Shown piece after piece: positions 6,405 to 41,886 of a stretch of 64,000 nt of DNA. The position numbers and the translations under genes are program-made. Every line of letters starts with the position of its first letter. Positions within the stretch are counted from its first letter, which is position 1. Below the pieces are notes generated by a model, which was not told where the DNA came from, ran no database searches, and was given only the letters and a program-made list of their open reading frames with translations. Source of the stretch: Flavihumibacter soli (GTDB lineage: Bacteria > Bacteroidota > Bacteroidia > Sphingobacteriales > Sphingobacteriaceae); the NCBI RefSeq assembly GCF_010692725.1, contig NZ_JAAFZB010000094.1, positions 62,001 through 126,000 on the forward strand, read 5' to 3'.

Positions 6405-7292
6405 TTACTCCGGTTCCTTCCACAATAGCCTCAACCGTTTATTTTTGAGCATACTGACATCTAGGATTTCAATATCTAAATGTAGGGTGTTTAATGAAAT
6501 TTCTTCGGGCGCTTCTAAGTATTTCCAAGTACCATCATTTAAAAATGGAATTGGTTCATTGAACGCCATAAATGTTGGTTTGAATTTCTCAGTAATATAA
6601 TCCCTTAGCCCTCGATATTCAGTTGGAACAAAAAATTTGAAGTGATGCCTGGCTTTAATTGTGTAGCTAACGCCACTTTTTAAGGGAAACAAATTCTCAT
6701 TCAGCTGTATGTCTTCGCGATTTAATTCAAGATAATGCGTCCCCTCATTTTTTGGGATATCATCTTTTTGCCATTTTTCCATGAAAATATTGAATGCATC
6801 TTCTGGAAAGGGTAGATGCATATGATCCATCGCACCCGGCTTCATGACTACGTAATGGTGTTGAATTTTAACTTCTACTGTAAGGCTTCGTTTAATTACC
6901 GGAATTTGGATTTCGGTCTGCCAATTTACCTTTGATGCATCGTGTGCAGTATAGAGGTCTATTTTTAACCTCTTAGCATACTCTTTCGCTGTTTTTGTAA
7001 AACCGGCGCTACATATTAGTATTCCTTTGGACGCCCTGATGTCCCGTATAACCGAATCAAACTCACCGACTATTTTGATGTCTGCAGGTTTTTTGTGGTT
7101 CTTTGCTTGTACGATCATTAATATTTCGTGTCCCGCAATTGTACTTCGAATTGAAATATCAATCTGACGTTGCTTTTGAGTTTCAAGACCCAAGATCTGA
7201 TCGTTCATGCGTACATCGGCAACCGGTTCCAGTTCTTTGTAGATCTGGTGAATCAGTTCCTCATAACTTTGCCAATCCTTTTTTTCTTTCAA
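6405..7292 (-). CDS. Mrr-like restriction endonuclease-domain protein
   Basis: A 295-aa protein whose first ~120 residues form a PD-(D/E)xK nuclease domain of the Mrr_cat type. Asp45 (QRQIDISIR) followed by Gln62-Ala-Lys64 (IVQAKNHKK) is the D...QxK signature, and GILICSAGFTKTAKEYAK continues the fold. Residues ~125-295 are an unrecognised second domain, possibly substrate-recognising. The frame opens with TTG at 7292; no ATG occurs before residue 29, so the TTG start is likely but not certain. No methyltransferase or specificity subunit is adjacent, so it could be a solitary type IV (modification-dependent) enzyme or a DNA-repair nuclease. It lies between two gene-poor stretches with gene debris, which suggests acquisition. 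Confidence 0.72.
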   Translation of the reverse strand: MKEKKDWQSYEELIHQIYKELEPVADVRMNDQILGLETQKQRQIDISIRSTIAGHEILMIVQAKNHKKPADIKIVGEFDSVIRDIRASKGILICSAGFTKTAKEYAKRLKIDLYTAHDASKVNWQTEIQIPVIKRSLTVEVKIQHHYVVMKPGAMDHMHLPFPEDAFNIFMEKWQKDDIPKNEGTHYLELNREDIQLNENLFPLKSGVSYTIKARHHFKFFVPTEYRGLRDYITEKFKPTFMAFNEPIPFLNDGTWKYLEAPEEISLNTLHLDIEILDVSMLKNKRLRLLWKEPE

Positions 7293-29585: not shown

Positions 29586-30152
29586 CTAGTCTTCAGTAGT
29601 TGGTGCGAATGCCGGGCTTTCTTTCTTGAATATAGCAGCAAAAATAAGCGACATGATAAACTGTACAAGGACGGCAATACCAAAATTTCTCGCAAGATCT
29701 TTGAAGGTAGGATCAAACTGTGCCTTCATTGCTTCCAGCTGTTTTTCTACAGCTTCGTCAATTTTGTCCTGCTCCATTCCAAGGTTTTCAAAAGTCTTGG
29801 TAGTGCCTTCCGTAATGTAGCCTGAGATCTTTTCAAAACCGTCAGGCTCAATGAACTTGTAGAAGATGAAATTAAATACCATACCGACTAAGCCAGCAAC
29901 GAAGGCCATCAGGAAGATACCCTTTAAAGCAGACTTGAAATTCCAGTACCCGCCGATCTTTTTTCTCAGATCAATTGTAAAATAGATGTAGAACGCCAGC
30001 GACAACAGCATTAGTCCGATACCGAACATAGTTGAACCCATCAGGTTTGGTGCGACGTAAAAGGTCAGAATGCCCACCACCGCCATGATGACACCGATGA
30101 CCAGTCCGTTAGTAACAGCTGCTTTGTTCAGATCCTGTAAATTTGATTCCAT
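29586..30152 (-). CDS. DUF4199 domain membrane protein
   Basis: A 188-aa protein with four hydrophobic segments (about 16-35, 40-58, 75-97 and 155-177) and a charged loop at about 100-150. This is the DUF4199 pattern found widely in Bacteroidota; function unknown. It follows the acidic hypothetical protein by 22 bp and ends before a strong terminator, so it closes the BatA-dihydroorotase-like-acidic protein-DUF4199 run. The first ~10 residues are probably cytosolic. Confidence 0.85.
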   Translation of the reverse strand: MESNLQDLNKAAVTNGLVIGVIMAVVGILTFYVAPNLMGSTMFGIGLMLLSLAFYIYFTIDLRKKIGGYWNFKSALKGIFLMAFVAGLVGMVFNFIFYKFIEPDGFEKISGYITEGTTKTFENLGMEQDKIDEAVEKQLEAMKAQFDPTFKDLARNFGIAVLVQFIMSLIFAAIFKKESPAFAPTTED

Positions 30153-30174
30153 TAGATTAAGGGTTTAGGTTTGG

Positions 30175-34360: not shown

Positions 34361-34390
34361 TTTGAAACCATCAAGCTATCAGTATATTTG
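34361..34390 (+). promoter_or_regulatory. Promoter of the histidine operon
   Basis: A full Bacteroidota promoter: TTTG at 34361-34364, 18 bp spacer, TATATTTG at 34383-34390 (exact TAnnTTTG). Transcription would start near 34397, about 27 nt before the leader-peptide ATG and 150 nt before hisG. Confidence 0.75.
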
Positions 34391-34423
34391 CATTCCTCCC
34401 GTTATTATGATGGGCCAGTAATT

Positions 34424-34480
34424 ATGATCAAAGTTTACACTCAGCACGTACATTTCCATCATCGCCACGAGCGGCGATAA
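34424..34480 (+). CDS. hisL: Candidate histidine-rich leader peptide of the his operon
   Basis: An 18-codon ORF ATG...TAA reading MIKVYTQHVHFHHRHERR. Five of eight consecutive residues (8-15) are histidine, as in enterobacterial HisL. It lies between a good promoter and hisG and is followed by a possible terminator at 34494-34516. The block GTAC(A/G)TTTCCA occurs twice (34448-34458 and 34490-34500), and ACGTACAT at 34446-34453 can pair with ATGTACGT at 34488-34495, which overlaps the terminator stem. This supports ribosome-mediated attenuation, although I could not define a full anti-terminator scheme. Confidence 0.7.
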   Translation: MIKVYTQHVHFHHRHERR

Positions 34481-34493
34481 ACTATATATGTAC

Positions 34494-34516
34494 GTTTCCA
34501 CTGTGAAACTTTTTCT
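34494..34516 (+). terminator. Candidate attenuator terminator before hisG
   Basis: GTTTC at 34494-34498 pairs with GAAAC at 34505-34509 (loop CACTGT), followed by TTTTTCTT. The stem is short, so it is weak by itself. Its 5' edge overlaps the alternative pairing ACGTACAT/ATGTACGT. Confidence 0.45.
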
Positions 34517-34548
34517 TAATTTATTTACTGGTCTAATCCTTTTCAATA

Positions 34549-35400
34549 TTGAAAACATTAAAAATTGCTATCCAAAAATCGGGTAGATTAAACGAAAAGT
34601 CCGTTCAGCTTCTTAAGAACTGCGGCTTGTCCTTCGAAAATTATAAGAGTTCACTGATTTCTACCGTTTCCAATTTCCCTTTAGAAATACTTTTTCTTCG
34701 CGACGATGATATCCCGGAGTACGTGCAGGACGGCATTGCAGACATCGGGATCGCAGGCGAAAATGTCATCGCCGAAACAGGGGTAGATGTAAGCTTTTTA
34801 CAGGAGCTTGGATTCGGAAAATGCACCCTCAAACTGGCTGTTCAAAATCATTCTCAGATCCAAAAGATAAGCGACCTCGAGGGAAAATCTATTGCCACTT
34901 CGTACCCTGTTATATTGAAAAAATTCCTTGCCGAAAACAAGGTAAATTCAGAGATCAGAACCATCTCCGGATCGGTAGAAATCTCACCCGGTCTCGGACT
35001 GAGTGATGCCATTTTTGACATCGTTTCAACCGGCGGAACTTTGAAGAGTAATGGCCTGAAACCATTCGCCGATGTGATGTCCTCGCAGGCTGTTTTAATT
35101 GGCCGGAAGGGGATCGAAAATGATGAGCTGGTTCGTGAACTTATCCAGCGGATCCAGTCAGTTCTGCGGGCGCGCGAAACAAAGTATGTGGTACTGAATA
35201 TCGAGAAAAAGAACCTGCCGGAAATTGTCAAATTGCTCCCGGGTGTGAAGAGTCCGACCGTGGTACCGCTGGCGCAGGAAGGCTGGGTAGCCATTCATAC
35301 GGTTATCGAAGAACGGGACTTCTGGGAAAAAATAAATTCACTCAAAGCGGTTGGTGCGCAGGGAATTGTGGTCATGCCAATCGAAAAAATCATCCTTTAG
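34549..35400 (+). CDS. hisG: ATP phosphoribosyltransferase, long form
   Basis: A 283-aa HisG, first enzyme of histidine synthesis (ATP + PRPP). The length and the C-terminal regulatory domain (about 210-283, GVKSPTVVPLAQEGWVAIHT) show the long, self-regulated form that needs no HisZ and is feedback-inhibited by histidine. Catalytic-domain motifs are KIAIQKSGRLNEKS, DIGIAGENVIAE and IVSTGGTLKSNGL. The start is a TTG at 34549, with no ATG in range, and it lies inside the perfect palindrome TTTTCAATATTGAAAA (34540-34555), which may affect translation or bind a regulator. First gene of an eight-gene operon. Confidence 0.96.
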   Translation: MKTLKIAIQKSGRLNEKSVQLLKNCGLSFENYKSSLISTVSNFPLEILFLRDDDIPEYVQDGIADIGIAGENVIAETGVDVSFLQELGFGKCTLKLAVQNHSQIQKISDLEGKSIATSYPVILKKFLAENKVNSEIRTISGSVEISPGLGLSDAIFDIVSTGGTLKSNGLKPFADVMSSQAVLIGRKGIENDELVRELIQRIQSVLRARETKYVVLNIEKKNLPEIVKLLPGVKSPTVVPLAQEGWVAIHTVIEERDFWEKINSLKAVGAQGIVVMPIEKIIL

Positions 35401-35433: not shown

Positions 35434-36738
35434 ATGCTGAAGCTCTACAATTTAAGCAACTTATCTGAATCGGAGATTCAGGGACTGTGTGACCGTAATG
35501 CTGACGAAGACAAAACCATACAAGTAAGCGTAAATGCTATCATTTCAGAGGTCAGACAGCGTGGTGATGAAGCTCTGAAAGCCTATGCAAAGGAGTTTGA
35601 CGGAGTAGATCTTGAGCAGCTATATATTGGCCGGGAAGAGATAGCCCTGCTGGCAGAATCAGTTCCGGCCATTCAAAAAGAAGCTATCGATATAGCGTAT
35701 AAGAACATCCAGACTTTTCACCTCGGCCAGGTTTGCAAGGAAGACGTAATTGAAACAATGCCAGGGGTTTCGTGCTGGCGCGATAGCCGCGCAATTGAGA
35801 AAGTTGGCCTGTATATCCCTGGCGGGACAGCAGTACTTCCGAGCACCTTCCTGATGCTGGGAGTGCCTGCACGTATAGCCGGATGCGAGGAAATTATTGT
35901 TTGTTCGCCGCCCCAGAAAAGCGGCCTGGTGAATGCCTACATCGCCTATTGCGCCCAACTGCTGCATATTGAGAAGATCTACCTGGTCGGCGGCGCCCAG
36001 GCGGTTGCTGCGATGGCCTTCGGAACCGAGAGCATTACTAAAGTTGACAAAATCTTCGGTCCTGGAAATCAATATGTAACAACGGCAAAAAGTATAATAC
36101 AAAGTATCAGCCGTACTGCCATCGATATGCCTGCAGGTCCCTCCGAGGTACTGGTCATTGCCGATGAGTCTTCCAACCCCGTTTTTGTTGCTGCCGATTT
36201 GTCAGCACAGGCCGAACATGGTATTGACAGTCAGGTTGTTCTGGTTTCTACCTCAAGTGATATTATAGATTCTATAAATAAGGAATTAGAACGCCAAATC
36301 CCGTCACTTCCCAGAGCTGCGATCGCGAGTCAGGCTTTGAAAAACTCTTACAGCATCCTGGTGAAGGACCTGAATGAAGCCATGGAGTTCAGCAATGCCT
36401 ACGCCCCTGAGCACCTGATACTGGCCACTCCGCGTTGGGGGGAACTTACTGATAAGATCAAAAATGCAGGCTCAGTATTCCTTGGAAACTACACTCCGGA
36501 GAGTGCCGGCGACTACGCTTCAGGGACAAATCATACGCTTCCAACAGGATCTTATGCGAGGTCATATTCCGGGGTTTCGGTCGACTCATTTGTTAAGAAA
36601 ATCACCTTCCAATATATCTCCGCAAAGGGCATTCAGAACATTGGTCCGACGGTCGAAATTCTGGCTGAACTGGAGGGTCTGGAAGCTCATAAAAACGCGG
36701 TCTCCGTCCGGCTTCTGGAGACCTTTTCACGATCATAA
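35434..36738 (+). CDS. hisD: Histidinol dehydrogenase
   Basis: A 434-aa NAD- and zinc-dependent enzyme for the last two steps, histidinol to histidine. Diagnostic segments: YIPGGTAVLPSTFLM, KIFGPGNQYVTTAKS, DMPAGPSEVLVIAD, the Zn-site AEHGIDSQVVLV and the catalytic NAYAPEHLIL. Length is normal. It starts 33 bp after hisG and ends 9 bp before hisC. Confidence 0.97.
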   Translation: MLKLYNLSNLSESEIQGLCDRNADEDKTIQVSVNAIISEVRQRGDEALKAYAKEFDGVDLEQLYIGREEIALLAESVPAIQKEAIDIAYKNIQTFHLGQVCKEDVIETMPGVSCWRDSRAIEKVGLYIPGGTAVLPSTFLMLGVPARIAGCEEIIVCSPPQKSGLVNAYIAYCAQLLHIEKIYLVGGAQAVAAMAFGTESITKVDKIFGPGNQYVTTAKSIIQSISRTAIDMPAGPSEVLVIADESSNPVFVAADLSAQAEHGIDSQVVLVSTSSDIIDSINKELERQIPSLPRAAIASQALKNSYSILVKDLNEAMEFSNAYAPEHLILATPRWGELTDKIKNAGSVFLGNYTPESAGDYASGTNHTLPTGSYARSYSGVSVDSFVKKITFQYISAKGIQNIGPTVEILAELEGLEAHKNAVSVRLLETFSRS

Positions 36739-36747
36739 AATTTAACC

Positions 36748-37803
36748 ATGTTTGATATCCAAAACATCCTTCGGGAAAACATAAAAAACCTTATCCCCTA
36801 CTCTTCCGCCCGAGACGAATTCAGCGGAAAAGCTTCTGTTTTTTTAGACGCAAATGAGAACAGTTTTGGCTCCCCGCTCGGAGAAAACTTCAACCGTTAT
36901 CCGGACCCTCAGCAGTCGAAGATCAAGCAGCGTTTAAGTCTTATCAAAGGGGTTCCGCCCCGAAATATTTTTCTTGGAAACGGAAGTGACGAAGCGATTG
37001 ATATTTTGTTCCGGGCTTTTTGTCGCCCGGGTATCGACAACGTGATCACGGTCCCTCCTACCTATGGCATGTACCAGGTGTCGGCGAACATTAATGACGT
37101 CGAAGTTAGGCAGGTAAATTTAAACCCGGCTTTCCAGTTAAACATGGAGGCGATCGCCGAGGCTATTGATGACAATACCCGGATCATATTTATTTGCTCG
37201 CCAAACAACCCTACAGGCAACTCAATTGACCGGGATGATATTCAGACCCTTCTCACAAATTTTAATGGCCTGGTGGTCGTCGATGAAGCTTATATCAATT
37301 ACTCCCGTCAGAAAACATTTATCCAGGAGCTGACCGAATATTCAAACCTGGTGGTATTGCAAACACTTTCCAAAGCATGGGGATTAGCCGGTTTGCGGGT
37401 CGGAATGGCTTTCGCCAGCGAAGAGATCATCGAGGTCTTTAACAAGGTAAAACCGCCGTACAATATTAATGAGGCTTCCCAGCAGCTCGTTTTAAAGGCA
37501 CTGGAAAATATAGAACAGGTAAATAACTGGATCAGGCAAACAGTAAAGGAGCGTGAAGGGTTGACTGCTGAGCTTGGTTTGCTGGATTATGTACAAAAGA
37601 TTTACCCCTCCGATGCTAACTTTCTCCTTGTCAAAATGACTAACCCCGTGTTTGTATACCAGGAGCTGGTTAACAAGGAGATCATCGTCAGGGACCGTTC
37701 TAAGGTGGAATTATGCGAAGGATGCCTTCGTATAACTGTCGGAACTCCGGAAGAGAATGAAATACTAATGAACGCTCTGCATAGTCTAATATCTAAAATC
37801 TAA
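36748..37803 (+). CDS. hisC: Histidinol-phosphate aminotransferase
   Basis: A 351-aa class I/II PLP aminotransferase. The PLP lysine is Lys209 in LQTLSKAWGLAG, the pyridine-N aspartate is Asp179 in VVVDEAY, and SPNNPTG lies at 151-157. It converts imidazole-acetol phosphate to histidinol phosphate. The final codons (HSLISKI and stop) fall within TCTAATATCTAAAATC-type repeat DNA that then fills the gap to hisB. Confidence 0.96.
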   Translation: MFDIQNILRENIKNLIPYSSARDEFSGKASVFLDANENSFGSPLGENFNRYPDPQQSKIKQRLSLIKGVPPRNIFLGNGSDEAIDILFRAFCRPGIDNVITVPPTYGMYQVSANINDVEVRQVNLNPAFQLNMEAIAEAIDDNTRIIFICSPNNPTGNSIDRDDIQTLLTNFNGLVVVDEAYINYSRQKTFIQELTEYSNLVVLQTLSKAWGLAGLRVGMAFASEEIIEVFNKVKPPYNINEASQQLVLKALENIEQVNNWIRQTVKEREGLTAELGLLDYVQKIYPSDANFLLVKMTNPVFVYQELVNKEIIVRDRSKVELCEGCLRITVGTPEENEILMNALHSLISKI

Positions 37804-37825
37804 TATCTCATATCTCATATCTCAA
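37780..37825. repeat. Degenerate TCTAATATCT / TCATATCTCA repeat at the hisC end
   Basis: Imperfect ATCTAATATCTAAAATC and CTCATATCTCATATCTC units overlap the last codons of hisC and run to the hisB ATG at 37826. Confidence 0.65.
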
Positions 37826-38917
37826 ATGAAAAAAGTACTATTCATAGACCGCGACGGAACCATTATCGTTGAGCCTGAGGACGAACAGATTGATAGCCTT
37901 GAAAAGCTGGAATTCCTACCTTATGCGATCTCTTCCTTAAAGAAACTCCAGGATTTCGGATATGAACTCGTTATGGTAAGCAACCAGGACGGTCGCGGGA
38001 CTTCCAGCTTTCCTGAAGAAACATTCCTGGTCCCGCAGCAGAAGATGTTGATAACCCTTCAGAACGAAGGAATAGAGTTTAAAGAGATCTTTATAGACCA
38101 TTCCTTTCCTGCAGATAATAGTCCGAACAGGAAACCAAATACCGGTATGCTAACCCCCTACCTGATCACCAATACAGTGGATCTTCATAACTCCTACACG
38201 ATCGGCGACAGGTTAACAGATGTAGAGCTGGCAAAAAACCTGGGCTGTAAAGCGATCTTTTATTCCACCGAAACTAACAATGAAGCTACCTATTGCAGTT
38301 CGAACTGGGAGGATATAGCGCGTTTCCTCACCTTGCGGAAGGAAAGGTTTTGCCAGCTGACCAGGAATACAAAAGAGACCCGTATCGATCTCGAGCTGAA
38401 TCTGGACGGAAACGGAAAACATTCAATTGATACCGGGCTGAAGTTTTATGATCATATGCTCGATCAGCTTGCCAAACATTCCGGTGTTGATCTCATCCTG
38501 ACCGTTAAGGGAGACCTGGAAATTGATGAGCATCATACGATTGAGGACAGTGCTATTGCCTTGGGAAAGGCCTTCAAGCAGGCTCTTGGCGATAAGCGAG
38601 GCATCGAACGGTATGGCTTCCTGCTGCCGATGGATGAAGCACTGGTGCAATGCGCCATCGATTTTTCTGACCGGGCGTATTTTATTTATGAGGGTAAGTT
38701 TGATCGTGAATATGTGGGCGACTTCCCAACGGAAATGTTTGAACACTGGATGAAATCTTTTTCGGAACACGCGGGCATGAACCTGAACCTGAAGATAATA
38801 GATGGAAATAACACCCATCATATGATCGAAGCAAGTTTCAAAGCTCTTGCAAAATGCATCAAACAGGCCATTGCAATAACCGGGACTGAGCTTCCTAGCA
38901 CAAAAGGCGTTTTATAG
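37826..38917 (+). CDS. hisB: Bifunctional histidinol-phosphatase / imidazoleglycerol-phosphate dehydratase
   Basis: A 363-aa fusion. Residues 1-~165 are a HAD phosphatase with DxD at Asp8/Asp10 (FIDRDGTII) and a later GDRLTDVELAKNLG motif. Residues ~170-363 are the dehydratase with metal-site histidines in DEHHTIEDSAIALG, FFDHML-type KFYDHMLDQLAKHS and GNNTHHMIEASFKAL. It catalyses two non-consecutive steps of histidine synthesis. The fusion is the same as in enterobacteria and common in Bacteroidota. Confidence 0.97.
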   Translation: MKKVLFIDRDGTIIVEPEDEQIDSLEKLEFLPYAISSLKKLQDFGYELVMVSNQDGRGTSSFPEETFLVPQQKMLITLQNEGIEFKEIFIDHSFPADNSPNRKPNTGMLTPYLITNTVDLHNSYTIGDRLTDVELAKNLGCKAIFYSTETNNEATYCSSNWEDIARFLTLRKERFCQLTRNTKETRIDLELNLDGNGKHSIDTGLKFYDHMLDQLAKHSGVDLILTVKGDLEIDEHHTIEDSAIALGKAFKQALGDKRGIERYGFLLPMDEALVQCAIDFSDRAYFIYEGKFDREYVGDFPTEMFEHWMKSFSEHAGMNLNLKIIDGNNTHHMIEASFKALAKCIKQAIAITGTELPSTKGVL

Positions 38918-39022
38918 TGCTTAGCAGGTAGTATTTAGTAGGTAGACATTGTTCGAAAAATTTCAAACTTAGATCTAAATACTCAGTACTAAATACTAAA
39001 TACTAACTACTAAATACGAAGA
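38918..39022. repeat. Degenerate TAGTATTTAGTAGG / AAATACTAAATACTA repeat
   Basis: TTAGCAGGTAGTATTTAGTA units near 38921-38945 are mirrored by CTAAATACTCAGTACTAAATAC units at 38970-39017, so the arms can form a long hairpin inside the his operon, between hisB and hisH. Confidence 0.7.
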
Positions 39023-39616
39023 ATGACAGGTATCATAAACTACGGAGCGGGCAACATATTCTCGCTTACTGCAGCCTTGAACCGGCTAAATATTCCTTAT
39101 GGAATGATAAACATCCCGGAAGAGCTTGAAAAGTATGAAAGGTATATAATCCCCGGGGTCGGACATGCAGGGGCTGCTATGCAGAAACTACGTAACAGCG
39201 GGCTTGCTGAAAGCATTCCCACCCTAAGGAAACCGGTGTTGGGGATCTGTGTCGGAATGCAACTGCTGACTGACTTTTCGGAAGAAGGGAACTCCCGGCT
39301 AACCGGAATTGTGCCTCTTAACACCCTGCATTTTAACAAAGAGCATGGACTTAAAGTACCCCACACCGGTTGGAATCAGGTCGACCTGGATAAACAAAAC
39401 CTCTTATTCGACGGTTTAGGTGCCCAACAATACTTTTACTTTGTCCACTCATTTTTTATAGAATTTAATCCTAAATTTACGATCGCTTCAGCTGAATACG
39501 GAATAAAATTTTCCGCGGTAATACAGAAAGATAACTATTACGGCGTTCAGTTTCATCCGGAAAAATCGGGCGTAGCCGGCGAAAAAATTTTATCTAATTT
39601 CTCACTCTTAGCTTAA
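39023..39616 (+). CDS. hisH: Imidazole glycerol phosphate synthase, glutaminase subunit
   Basis: A 197-aa class I glutamine amidotransferase. The triad is Cys76 (LGICVGMQLL), His178 and Glu180 (VQFHPEKSG). The N-terminus GIINYGAGNIFSL and the oxyanion region PGVGHAG are typical. It feeds ammonia to HisF in the HisHF complex. Four bases separate it from hisA. Confidence 0.97.
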   Translation: MTGIINYGAGNIFSLTAALNRLNIPYGMINIPEELEKYERYIIPGVGHAGAAMQKLRNSGLAESIPTLRKPVLGICVGMQLLTDFSEEGNSRLTGIVPLNTLHFNKEHGLKVPHTGWNQVDLDKQNLLFDGLGAQQYFYFVHSFFIEFNPKFTIASAEYGIKFSAVIQKDNYYGVQFHPEKSGVAGEKILSNFSLLA

Positions 39617-39620
39617 TTAC

Positions 39621-40370
39621 ATGTATATAATTCCGGCCATCGACATTCTTGATGGTAAAGTTGTACGCCTCCGCGAAGGCAATTACGAGCAGGCTACTTT
39701 CTATGATGTTACTCTTGAGGAAATGATAGAGAAATATCAGTCAAAGGGAACCGAATTTATTCACATCATTGATCTGAACGGCGCCAAAGGAGACTTCAGC
39801 AACCAGAAATTTCTTTTTGATTCCCTGAGCAAGACAGATATTAAAGTCCAATACGGCGGCGGCGTTAGAAGCATCGATAAAGTCAAAGAACTTATTGACT
39901 ACGGAATTCATCGCATCATTGTAGGAACGCAAGCTATAACAAACCCGGAGTTCCTTCCGGAGCTTAGTAAAGAGATCTGCGGCAGGGAAAAATGCTCAGA
40001 TCAGGTAGTAGTAGCGATTGATGTGCTCGATGAGGTGATAAAATATTCCGGCTGGATGGAAAGTTCGCCAGTTAAATTGACAGAATACATCGACCGCTGT
40101 CTAAGCCTTGGTTTTTTCAGATTCCTGTGTACAGACATCAATAAAGATGGGAAACTTGGTGGTACAGCCGTCGATCTGTACCGAAAGCTGCTGGACCATT
40201 CGCCTTTCATTAAACTTATCGCGTCAGGGGGTATCAGTTCGATGGATGACATCCGCGAACTGCAGAAAATTAAAGTTGAGTCATGCGTGGTTGGGAAAGC
40301 AATCTATGAGAACCGAATCAGTATTGATGAAATAAAAGATTGGAACCTAAAAGCTCTCATTAGCTTTTAA
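39621..40370 (+). CDS. hisA: ProFAR isomerase
   Basis: A 249-aa (beta/alpha)8 barrel that isomerises ProFAR to PRFAR. Catalytic Asp8 is in IPAIDILDGKVVRL, and the second aspartate is in FLCTDINKDGKL. Phosphate-binding loops are GGGVRS and IASGGISS. Length is normal. It lies between hisH and hisF in the conserved order. Confidence 0.96.
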   Translation: MYIIPAIDILDGKVVRLREGNYEQATFYDVTLEEMIEKYQSKGTEFIHIIDLNGAKGDFSNQKFLFDSLSKTDIKVQYGGGVRSIDKVKELIDYGIHRIIVGTQAITNPEFLPELSKEICGREKCSDQVVVAIDVLDEVIKYSGWMESSPVKLTEYIDRCLSLGFFRFLCTDINKDGKLGGTAVDLYRKLLDHSPFIKLIASGGISSMDDIRELQKIKVESCVVGKAIYENRISIDEIKDWNLKALISF

Positions 40371-40417
40371 ACTCTCCAAACAGTCAATGAAATCCCTGGT
40401 TTACCAGATACTACATA

Positions 40418-41185
40418 ATGCTTACTAAAAGGATCATCCCTTGCCTGGATGTAAAAGATGGCCGTACCGTTAAGGGTATAAACTTCGTTGACCTTCGAGA
40501 CGCCGGTGACCCCGTGGAACTTGCCTGGCAATATTCGGTACAGGGTGCTGATGAACTTGTTTTTTTGGATATTTCAGCCACTGATGAAAAAAGAAAAACC
40601 ATGGCTGAACTCGTTAAATCGGTCGCCAGGCAAATTAATATACCATTTACCATTGGCGGCGGAATTAACGAGATCGCCGATGCTGATATCCTGCTCAATT
40701 CGGGTGCTGATAAGATTTCCATCAATTCGGCCGCGGTCAGAAATCCACAACTGATCGATGACCTTGCTGCCGGCTTCGGAAAGCAGTTCGTCGTTGTTGC
40801 TGTTGATACTAAAGCCATAAACGGCAAAAACTATGTTCATCTGAACGGCGGGCGAATTCCAACCGGAATCGAAACGAAATCCTGGGTGCTCGAGGCTCAG
40901 GAACGAGGCGCGGGCGAAATATTGTTAACATCTATGGATCATGACGGTACGAAGGGCGGCTTCGATTGCAAGCAACTTCAAAAGATCAACCGCATGCTTT
41001 CCATACCCGTGATCGCTTCGGGCGGTGCTGGAAGCAGGGAGGATTTTGCTGAAGTATTTAATGAAACTGACGTTGACGCTGCATTAGCAGCATCCGTGTT
41101 TCACTATGGCCAGATACTAATCCCCGATTTAAAGCAATATTTAAAAGAACAGGGAGTTTTGGTGAGGCAGGTGAATGAAGAATGA
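40418..41185 (+). CDS. hisF: Imidazole glycerol phosphate synthase, cyclase subunit
   Basis: A 255-aa (beta/alpha)8 barrel that makes IGP and AICAR from PRFAR and ammonia supplied by HisH. Catalytic Asp11 ([15 protein letters not shown]) and Asp in [15 protein letters not shown] are present, and phosphate loops GGGIN and ASGGAGS fit. The stop is followed by about 100 bp of repeat DNA before hisIE. Confidence 0.97.
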
Positions 41186-41289
41186 CGAATTAAGAATTAA
41201 GATTTACGAACAAAGAATAAGGATCAAAGAGCAAGGAAGTATCTCCAATCTAATATCTAAAATCTAATATCTAACATCTATAATCTATA
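41186..41289. repeat. Degenerate repeats between hisF and hisIE
   Basis: Two repeat styles sit side by side: AAGAATTAAGATT / CAAAGAATAAGGATCAAAGAGCAAGG (as at 2.6-2.8 kb) and CTAATATCTAAAATCTAATATC (as at 37.8 kb). No gene is present. Confidence 0.7.
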
Positions 41290-41886
41290 ATGACAATTGA
41301 TTTTTCGAAAGGCGACGGCCTGGTTCCGGTTGTAATCCAGGATATCCAGTCCCTGGAAGTTCTGATGCTGGGTTACATGAATGAAGAGGCATACAAAAAG
41401 ACGGTGTCTGAAAATAAGGTTACATTTTTCTCCCGCTCGAGGAAACGTCTCTGGACAAAAGGCGAAGAAAGCGGGAATTTTCTGCATGTTAAAAGTATCA
41501 GCGTTGACTGCGACAACGATACTCTATTGATCATGGCTTTGCCTGACGGTCCTACCTGTCATACCGGTTCCCGCAGCTGCTTTTCAACAGATTATAACCA
41601 GAACTTCATCTTCCGGCTCGAGCAAATCATCGCCGAACGCTACGACAGTCCGGAGGAAACCTCATACATCAATAAACTCCGGCAGAAAGGTTTGAACAAG
41701 ATCGCGCAGAAAGTCGGCGAAGAGGGTGTTGAAACCGTTATTGCGGCCCTGAACGAAACAGAGCAGGATTTGGTCAATGAAGCTTCTGATCTGCTCTTTC
41801 ACCTCCTTGTATTGTTAAAAGAGAAGAATGTTTCTCTCGAAACCATCTCAAAGAATCTTGAACAAAGGCACGCAAGCCGCACATAA
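41290..41886 (+). CDS. hisI: Bifunctional PRA-CH cyclohydrolase / PRA-PP pyrophosphohydrolase
   Basis: A 198-aa HisIE fusion. The N-terminal cyclohydrolase (1-~105) has [29 protein letters not shown] and the zinc-site CHTGSRSCF. The C-terminal pyrophosphohydrolase (~110-198) has [20 protein letters not shown] with the acidic metal residues. It carries out steps two and three and completes the operon set; all ten activities except none are covered by the eight genes here. Confidence 0.96.

Follow-up and report, generated by a model that had tools for sequence, protein, structure and literature searches.

A predicted histidine-sensing leader that lacks a canonical terminator and folds over its own start codon upstream of hisG in Sphingobacteriaceae

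Is the histidine operon in this Flavihumibacter soli DNA controlled by a leader peptide, and, if so, does that leader work as the enterobacterial his attenuator does? Attenuation of the trp/his type is ribosome mediated and requires translation to keep pace with transcription, and the Bacteroidota are said to have few Shine-Dalgarno sites. An earlier note on the window (by which we mean the whole 64,000-nucleotide stretch analyzed) read the DNA before hisG as a promoter, a His-rich leader peptide and a terminator in the enterobacterial HisL layout. The features needed for the argument are as follows.

34361..34390, + strand: Bacteroidota-type promoter (TTTG at 34361-34364, 18 nt, then TATATTTG at 34383-34390)
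34409..34420, + strand: A, the 5' strand of the predicted base helix, lying shortly 5' of the leader start; its partner is 34526-34538 in the window fold and in the own-versus-swapped partner test
34421..34440, + strand: leader start codon and B (codons 1-6); predicted by the window fold and the swap test to pair with 34503-34520
34424..34480, + strand: leader peptide ORF, translating to MIKVYTQHVHFHHRHERR and a stop codon; the first His is codon 8
34446..34453, + strand: C, the first His codons; predicted to pair with C' at 34488-34495, with C:C' recovered by alignment folding in 2/5 groups
34461..34478, + strand: D, a hairpin at the ORF end (34461-34466/34473-34478), recovered by alignment folding in 5/5 groups
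34488..34495, + strand: C', the partner of C in the minimum-energy fold
34494..34509, + strand: small hairpin GUUUC/GAAAC (-1.8 kcal/mol), which excludes B:B' and is read here as permissive
34503..34538, + strand: B' and A', forming the U-rich 3' strand of the long fold, whose sequence complements the region around the leader start
34549..35400, + strand: hisG, start codon TTG (TIGR00070)
35434..41886, + strand: the rest of the operon, hisD, hisC, hisB (fused), hisH, hisA, hisF and hisIE (fused)

The outline of this arrangement was borne out. An 18-codon ORF with five His in eight residues (HVHFHHRH) does lie between promoter and hisG at 34424-34480, and the HxHxHHxH pattern that it contains occurs three times in 4.4 Mb (both strands), the window leader being one of the three. 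The assignment of hisG was confirmed by TIGR00070, with its start at the TTG at 34549. The downstream genes follow an enterobacteria-like order, with a fused hisB (phosphatase plus dehydratase, 37826-38917) and a fused hisIE (41290-41886). The promoter pattern TTTG-N17-21-TAnnTTTG is weak evidence alone, with 3 matches in the 64 kb window against 1.67 expected by chance; the other + strand matches in the window lie at 6905-6934 and 30142-30173. The consensus promoter proposed 5' of the leader was nonetheless upheld by relatives: a TAnnTTTG box is found there in 154 of 161 distinct Sphingobacteriaceae leaders, compared to 5.5% of shuffled segments, and 107 of the 161 have a second TTTG 17-21 nt above it. 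The repeated GTAC(A/G)TTTCCA that had been offered in support of a switch does occur in the window, but alignments judged by eye show relatives that do not carry it as a repeat, and we rejected it as a switch element.

The loci in which conservation of the leader was assessed include 80 family and 60 other-family stretches that were hand-chosen from lists and are not a random sample. We counted an ORF as His-rich if it had 8-45 codons and at least 4 His in 10 residues and lay no more than 400 nt upstream of hisG. Such an ORF was found in 202 of 211 Sphingobacteriaceae loci (some of which are one genome reached by two routes), compared to 0/211 on the reverse strand and 0-3/211 in five dinucleotide shuffles. 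Nine of the 211 loci failed the cut; one of them, from a genome of the window's own genus, G056 (locus L221), is without a His-rich ORF before hisG, and no hisG match was found in three same-genus genomes. With these few exceptions, the relatives have the ORF with clustered His codons whose absence, according to the earlier note, would have refuted its reading. Removing L064 and L150 (upstream sequence too short) and L165 and L221 (no His ORF) left 207 leaders, 161 of them distinct; most counts below refer to the 149 compact leaders, with 12 long-spacing leaders treated apart. Codon 7 or 8 encodes the first His in 123 of the 161. Outside the family, a His-rich ORF precedes hisG in 62 of 83 loci (reverse strand, 1; shuffles, 0-2), and these come from 17 of the 25 Bacteroidota families sampled there, although one or two single hits may be due to chance. 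The link between leader peptide and hisG is thus supported across the family, and the peptide itself across much of the phylum.

A histidine-sensing leader before hisG is therefore well supported, and we consider it very probable that this leader is a His-sensing attenuator. His codons also sit in stems C and D, as might be expected if the ORF were an untranslated by-product of a structured DNA or RNA element. This is very improbable, since His is retained while its codon varies (CAT and CAC are both used in 37 of the 74 cluster-position columns with at least 3 sequences), the ORF persists in families that show no long-fold signal, described below, in their leaders, and Tyr/Phe-rich and Trp-rich equivalents stand upstream of pheA and trpE.

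Where the leader departs from the enterobacterial layout is in its terminator. We defined a canonical terminator as a best local hairpin of -8 kcal/mol or below with 5 or more U among the next 8 nt. Between the leader ORF and hisG, this was found in 0 of the 149 compact Sphingobacteriaceae leaders, in which the best U-followed hairpin has a median of -1.2 kcal/mol (-1.8 in the window) and reaches -6 in 6 leaders, and in 0 of the 12 long-spacing leaders, two of which (L069, -8.2; L075, -11.0) would reach the cut if 4 U were asked. By contrast, 49 of the 62 other-family Bacteroidota his leaders have a canonical terminator (median, -14.9). In the family designated f23 (L272, L273, L277, L279, L281, L282, L286, L293 and L294), a His-rich ORF is present in 9/9 loci and a canonical terminator in 0/9.

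All 15 scored pheA and trpE leaders have a canonical terminator (7/7 and 8/8, respectively). Scoring covered the loci with a recognized leader, namely seven of nine pheA loci, all of the window's genus, and eight of 12 trpE-family loci, seven of the window's genus and one of another family; the unscored loci comprise other families and a second trpE-like gene. In the window's own genome, the pheA leader (L302, G000:C96) encodes the Tyr/Phe-rich MILSNAYWNGYFYFYSESRD before a strong terminator, as in six same-genus relatives, and a trpE-like leader (L319, G000:C96) encodes MIVLNTCNWWSFFN, also before a strong terminator, with seven similar relatives. The lineage thus uses textbook attenuators at pheA and trpE, and its his leader differs from them. 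Homoserine dehydrogenase showed no clear leader in six of twelve loci, the flank falling short of the gene start in the other six. Leu/Ile/Val-rich short ORFs, possibly branched-chain leaders, precede ilvD in some relatives (L304, L307 and L308).

The short hairpin and U-tract reported earlier are present in the window, where GUUUC/GAAAC at 34494-34509 (5 bp) is followed by UUUUUCUU, 7 of whose 8 nt are U. In a classic HisL-type scheme, this hairpin and tract would be the intrinsic terminator and the long pairing would be the antiterminator. The window's U-tract, the U-rich tracts behind the hairpin in several clusters and the local terminators of the 49 other-family leaders all speak for such a scheme. 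The hairpin, however, is worth only -1.8 kcal/mol in the window and has a family median of -3.0 kcal/mol; the U-tract is not conserved, as 45 of the 48 leaders in a Mucilaginibacter-like cluster have 0-2 U of 8 there; no compact leader has a canonical terminator; and the modeled response to stalling, given below, has the wrong sign, as a stall at the first His codons favors the hairpin. We therefore regard classic HisL-type attenuation as quite improbable here and rejected the small hairpin as a terminator on strength, conservation and sign. Of the HisL layout first proposed, the His leader peptide and the exclusive folds stand, while the intrinsic terminator does not; as this is one defining feature of trp/his attenuators, we do not file the leader as a classic member of that class, although it should work like a ribosome-mediated attenuator.

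In place of a terminator, folding predicts a long structure, F. The minimum-energy fold of 34400-34554 has an energy of -40.4 kcal/mol (z = -5.5 versus dinucleotide shuffles), and in it the leader start codon itself is paired; the alternative pairing 34446-34453/34488-34495, pointed out earlier, is part of this fold. We examined the pairing of the start region across the family by matching a segment that reaches from 30 nt upstream to 21 nt downstream of the leader start with the RNA that separates the leader stop from hisG. The pairing reached z <= -2 versus shuffles in 108 of 149 Sphingobacteriaceae leaders (mean, -2.83), compared to 6 of 62 other-family leaders (mean, -0.20) and one of the 15 pheA/trpE leaders (the trpE leader of the window's genome, at -2.1); no such signal was seen in the f23 his leaders. 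When partners were swapped between clusters, a cluster's own partner won in 13 of 15 clusters, with a mean z of -2 or below in 6; the window's cluster scored -21.0 kcal/mol with its own partner versus -10.4 kcal/mol with swapped ones, and 2 of the 15 clusters failed. Seven of the 12 long-spacing leaders reached z <= -2. Four long-spacing leaders from Parapedobacter have their best A' next to the leader itself and 56-224 nt away from hisG (z, -3.0 to -4.3), although in three of the four the remaining spacer pairs nearly as well with the leader start (-18.7 to -23.4 versus -23.2 to -25.5 kcal/mol).

Alignment folding within clades recovered the small hairpin in 4/5 groups and C:C', B:B' or A:A' in some. 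Covariation within clades was modest, with double-change pairs above every row shuffle in 2/5 groups and the share of paired cells above every shuffle in 5/5, narrowly in four. The expectation of conserved His codons with covarying stems was borne out for the codons, with few exceptions, and to a modest degree for the stems. Together, these comparisons show, as far as sequence can, that the leader start region of Sphingobacteriaceae his leaders is predicted to pair with the RNA just before hisG.

The small hairpin is present in 146 of the 149 compact leaders. Its arms vary by clade (GUUUC/GAAAC, GUUUUG/CAAAAC or GCUUC/GGAGC), and its loop is usually UACGU, which we take to be UNCG-like, with CACUGU in the window. 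Sequence comparison shows it sharing its predicted 3' arm with F, such that the two folds should be mutually exclusive; the earlier proposal of exclusive folds with a common arm thus gains support across the family from both comparison and modeling.

Which fold would form in a given state was modeled by masking about 30 nt for a ribosome and computing the pairing in 146 leaders, omitting the three of 149 that have no small hairpin. In full leaders, the mean probability of the small hairpin was 0.18 for free RNA; placing the ribosomal A site at the first His codon gave 0.79, at the last 0.46 and at the stop codon 0.04. Transcripts ending 4 nt past the hairpin behaved similarly (0.16, 0.73, 0.49 and 0.10, respectively), and the value at the first His codon exceeded that at the stop codon in 138-144 of the 146 leaders across five other footprint sizes. 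Shuffling the 5' part raised the free-RNA probability to 0.57, above the real value in 123 of 146 leaders. The window itself behaves less cleanly in two respects: in its full leader, a modeled stall at the second or a later His codon lets F return, and in its short transcript, a ribosome at the stop codon gives a small-hairpin probability of 0.95, versus the family mean of 0.10.

These folding models suggest that F would form when histidine is sufficient or the leader is not translated, whereas a ribosome held up at codon 7-8, where the first His codons lie, would cover B and C, disfavor F and allow the small hairpin to form. The operon should be on in starvation, and the first-His stall disfavors F; we therefore read F as the off state. 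By this pathway logic, the assignment of F as off and the small hairpin as on is likely, although model based. The earlier note had been left with a puzzle, in that stalling at the first His codons would also mask the first arm. The puzzle would disappear if the roles were reversed and the first arm served a repressive long fold, a reversal that the modeling points to. As a whole explanation, a ribosome-operated attenuator of hisGDCBHAF(IE) that senses charged His-tRNA by way of its short leader peptide is, in our judgment, probable.

The least certain step is how F would act. It may stop transcription at its U-rich 3' strand, as a long, zippered, noncanonical terminator. An F-type stem next to at least 5 U of 8 is offered by 131 of 149 leaders as free RNA and by 117 when a ribosome occupies the stop codon, and 78 still offer one on a first-His stall. 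In that stalled state, a small hairpin backed by 5 or more U is available in 61 of 149 leaders (median, -2.9 kcal/mol), as the HisL-type scheme expects. The U-richness of A' is not independent evidence for termination, because pairing with the A-rich leader start can explain it. The four long-spacing Parapedobacter leaders, in which A' lies by the leader and 56-224 nt from hisG, favor an event in the leader over occlusion of the hisG start. Overall, we put termination as the output of F at nearly, but not quite, an even chance.

Should F not terminate transcription intrinsically, Rho might act in leaders that are untranslated or folded as F. Such a mechanism would fit the absence of an intrinsic terminator and the C-rich stretches seen by eye after the small hairpin in several clades, but the ordered F fold would then need another reason, and we consider it improbable.

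A further clue lies in the start codon of hisG. In compact leaders, where A' ends a median of 11 nt before hisG, the gene starts with TTG in 94 cases, GTG in 54 and ATG once (148 of 149 non-AUG), versus ATG in 12 of 12 long-spacing leaders; the mechanical ORF finder assigned ATG to all seven downstream his genes of the window. Spacing has switched three times or more on a hisG protein tree with 105 entries (97 compact with a non-ATG start, 1 compact with ATG and 7 long-spacing with ATG); the TTG and GTG entries look intermixed by eye, and ATG occurs once among 98 compact rows. Parapedobacter indicus is compact and has TTG, while its long-spacing congeners have ATG. One idea is that a strong hisG start so near A' would pull A:A' apart, and the lack of AUG in compact leaders, a point against termination, hints at a role once hisG's start has been made. 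Three other accounts were rejected. An AUG at hisG would not be trapped by A', as its modeled introduction opened the region on average and left it less open in 26 of 149 leaders; leader codons do not sequester the hisG start, as their own pairing was no better than that with swapped partners overall; and a local hairpin at the start codon is not conserved, its partners differing between relatives.

The start codons also bear on a reading in which F controls translation or RNA fate, occluding the U-rich stretch before a weak UUG/GUG hisG start until a stalled or queued leader ribosome opens it. The short distance between A' and hisG in compact leaders, the non-AUG starts confined to those leaders and the mixing of TTG and GTG on the tree are all in keeping with such control, as is the modeled opening of the -40..-19 region, which rises from 0.37 to 0.47 when a ribosome stalls at the first His and to 0.61 when one sits on the leader start. 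Against it, accessibility of the hisG start region itself is unchanged between states (0.64 free, 0.63 at the first His and 0.64 at the stop), A:A' is found also at 56-224 nt from hisG, and leader codons show no specific pairing with the hisG start. We regard control at this level as rather unlikely.

The evidence taken as a whole leads us to propose, tentatively and at somewhat less than even odds, that the his attenuator has been rebuilt in Sphingobacteriaceae: its terminator is gone, and control depends on a fold in which the leader hides its own start codon, coupled to a non-AUG hisG start when hisG abuts the leader. If this were true, it would be a ribosome-operated switch without an intrinsic terminator, possibly one acting after transcription. 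The confinement of non-AUG hisG starts to genes adjoining the leader is a sharp anomaly in its own right. One cell also offers a natural comparison, with two textbook attenuators, at pheA and trpE, beside a terminator-less his leader. More broadly, His leaders in 17 of 25 other families, together with the pheA and trpE leaders, make transcription-translation coupling directly testable in the phylum.

How, then, does this leader compare to known systems? No Rfam family matched the window at gathering score, His_leader (presumably RF00514) included, and there was no relevant weak match. The covariance model of Bacteroid-trp (RF01692) matched neither the window nor any of 21 genomes, and we rejected this or another Rfam element as the leader's identity. 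Among open-license PMC papers, the searches listed none on Sphingobacteriaceae his leaders, and the terminator-free, start-sequestering form did not turn up there.

Leader-peptide attenuation is a known kind of control and has already been proposed in this phylum. Leader genes in general are treated in the part of PMC4833913 that we consulted. In Flavobacterium psychrophilum, strong clues for such attenuation at amino acid operons, with 5' elements at hisG and pheA, are given in the consulted part of PMC9723704, where the structured hisG element is described as conserved in other Flavobacteriaceae genera and without an Rfam hit. Our leaders resemble these elements in the leader-peptide attenuation proposed there for Bacteroidota amino acid operons (PMC9723704, in the same part); the contrast that can be drawn is that between our other-family his leaders, 49 of 62 with a canonical terminator, and those of Sphingobacteriaceae, 0 of 149. 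Short ORFs reminiscent of leader peptides occur in Bacteroides 5' UTRs (PMC7366714, in the passages available to us), and the his genes of the superphylum are treated in PMC8305728, in whose main text, the portion searched, the word "leader" is absent. Bacteroid-trp RNA (RF01692) is a predicted cis-regulatory leader of an amino acid operon in Bacteroidetes, according to excerpts of PMC2864571 and PMC6414381; it is alike in that respect and differs in that its covariance model is unmatched here. The his attenuators of Firmicutes and Proteobacteria are the subject of PMC9413887, as far as its consulted sections go, and its main text contains no word starting with "bacteroid"; the Firmicutes attenuators share with ours His-codon leader peptides before his genes, but belong to another phylum and are described in those sections with terminator and antiterminator hairpins. 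The closest likeness is to the enterobacterial his attenuator, HisL, with which the Sphingobacteriaceae leader has in common a clustered-His leader peptide before the hisG of a hisGDCBHAFI operon and folds predicted to exclude one another; it differs from HisL in being without a canonical terminator, in placing its own start codon within the predicted long fold, and in preceding a hisG gene that starts with UUG.
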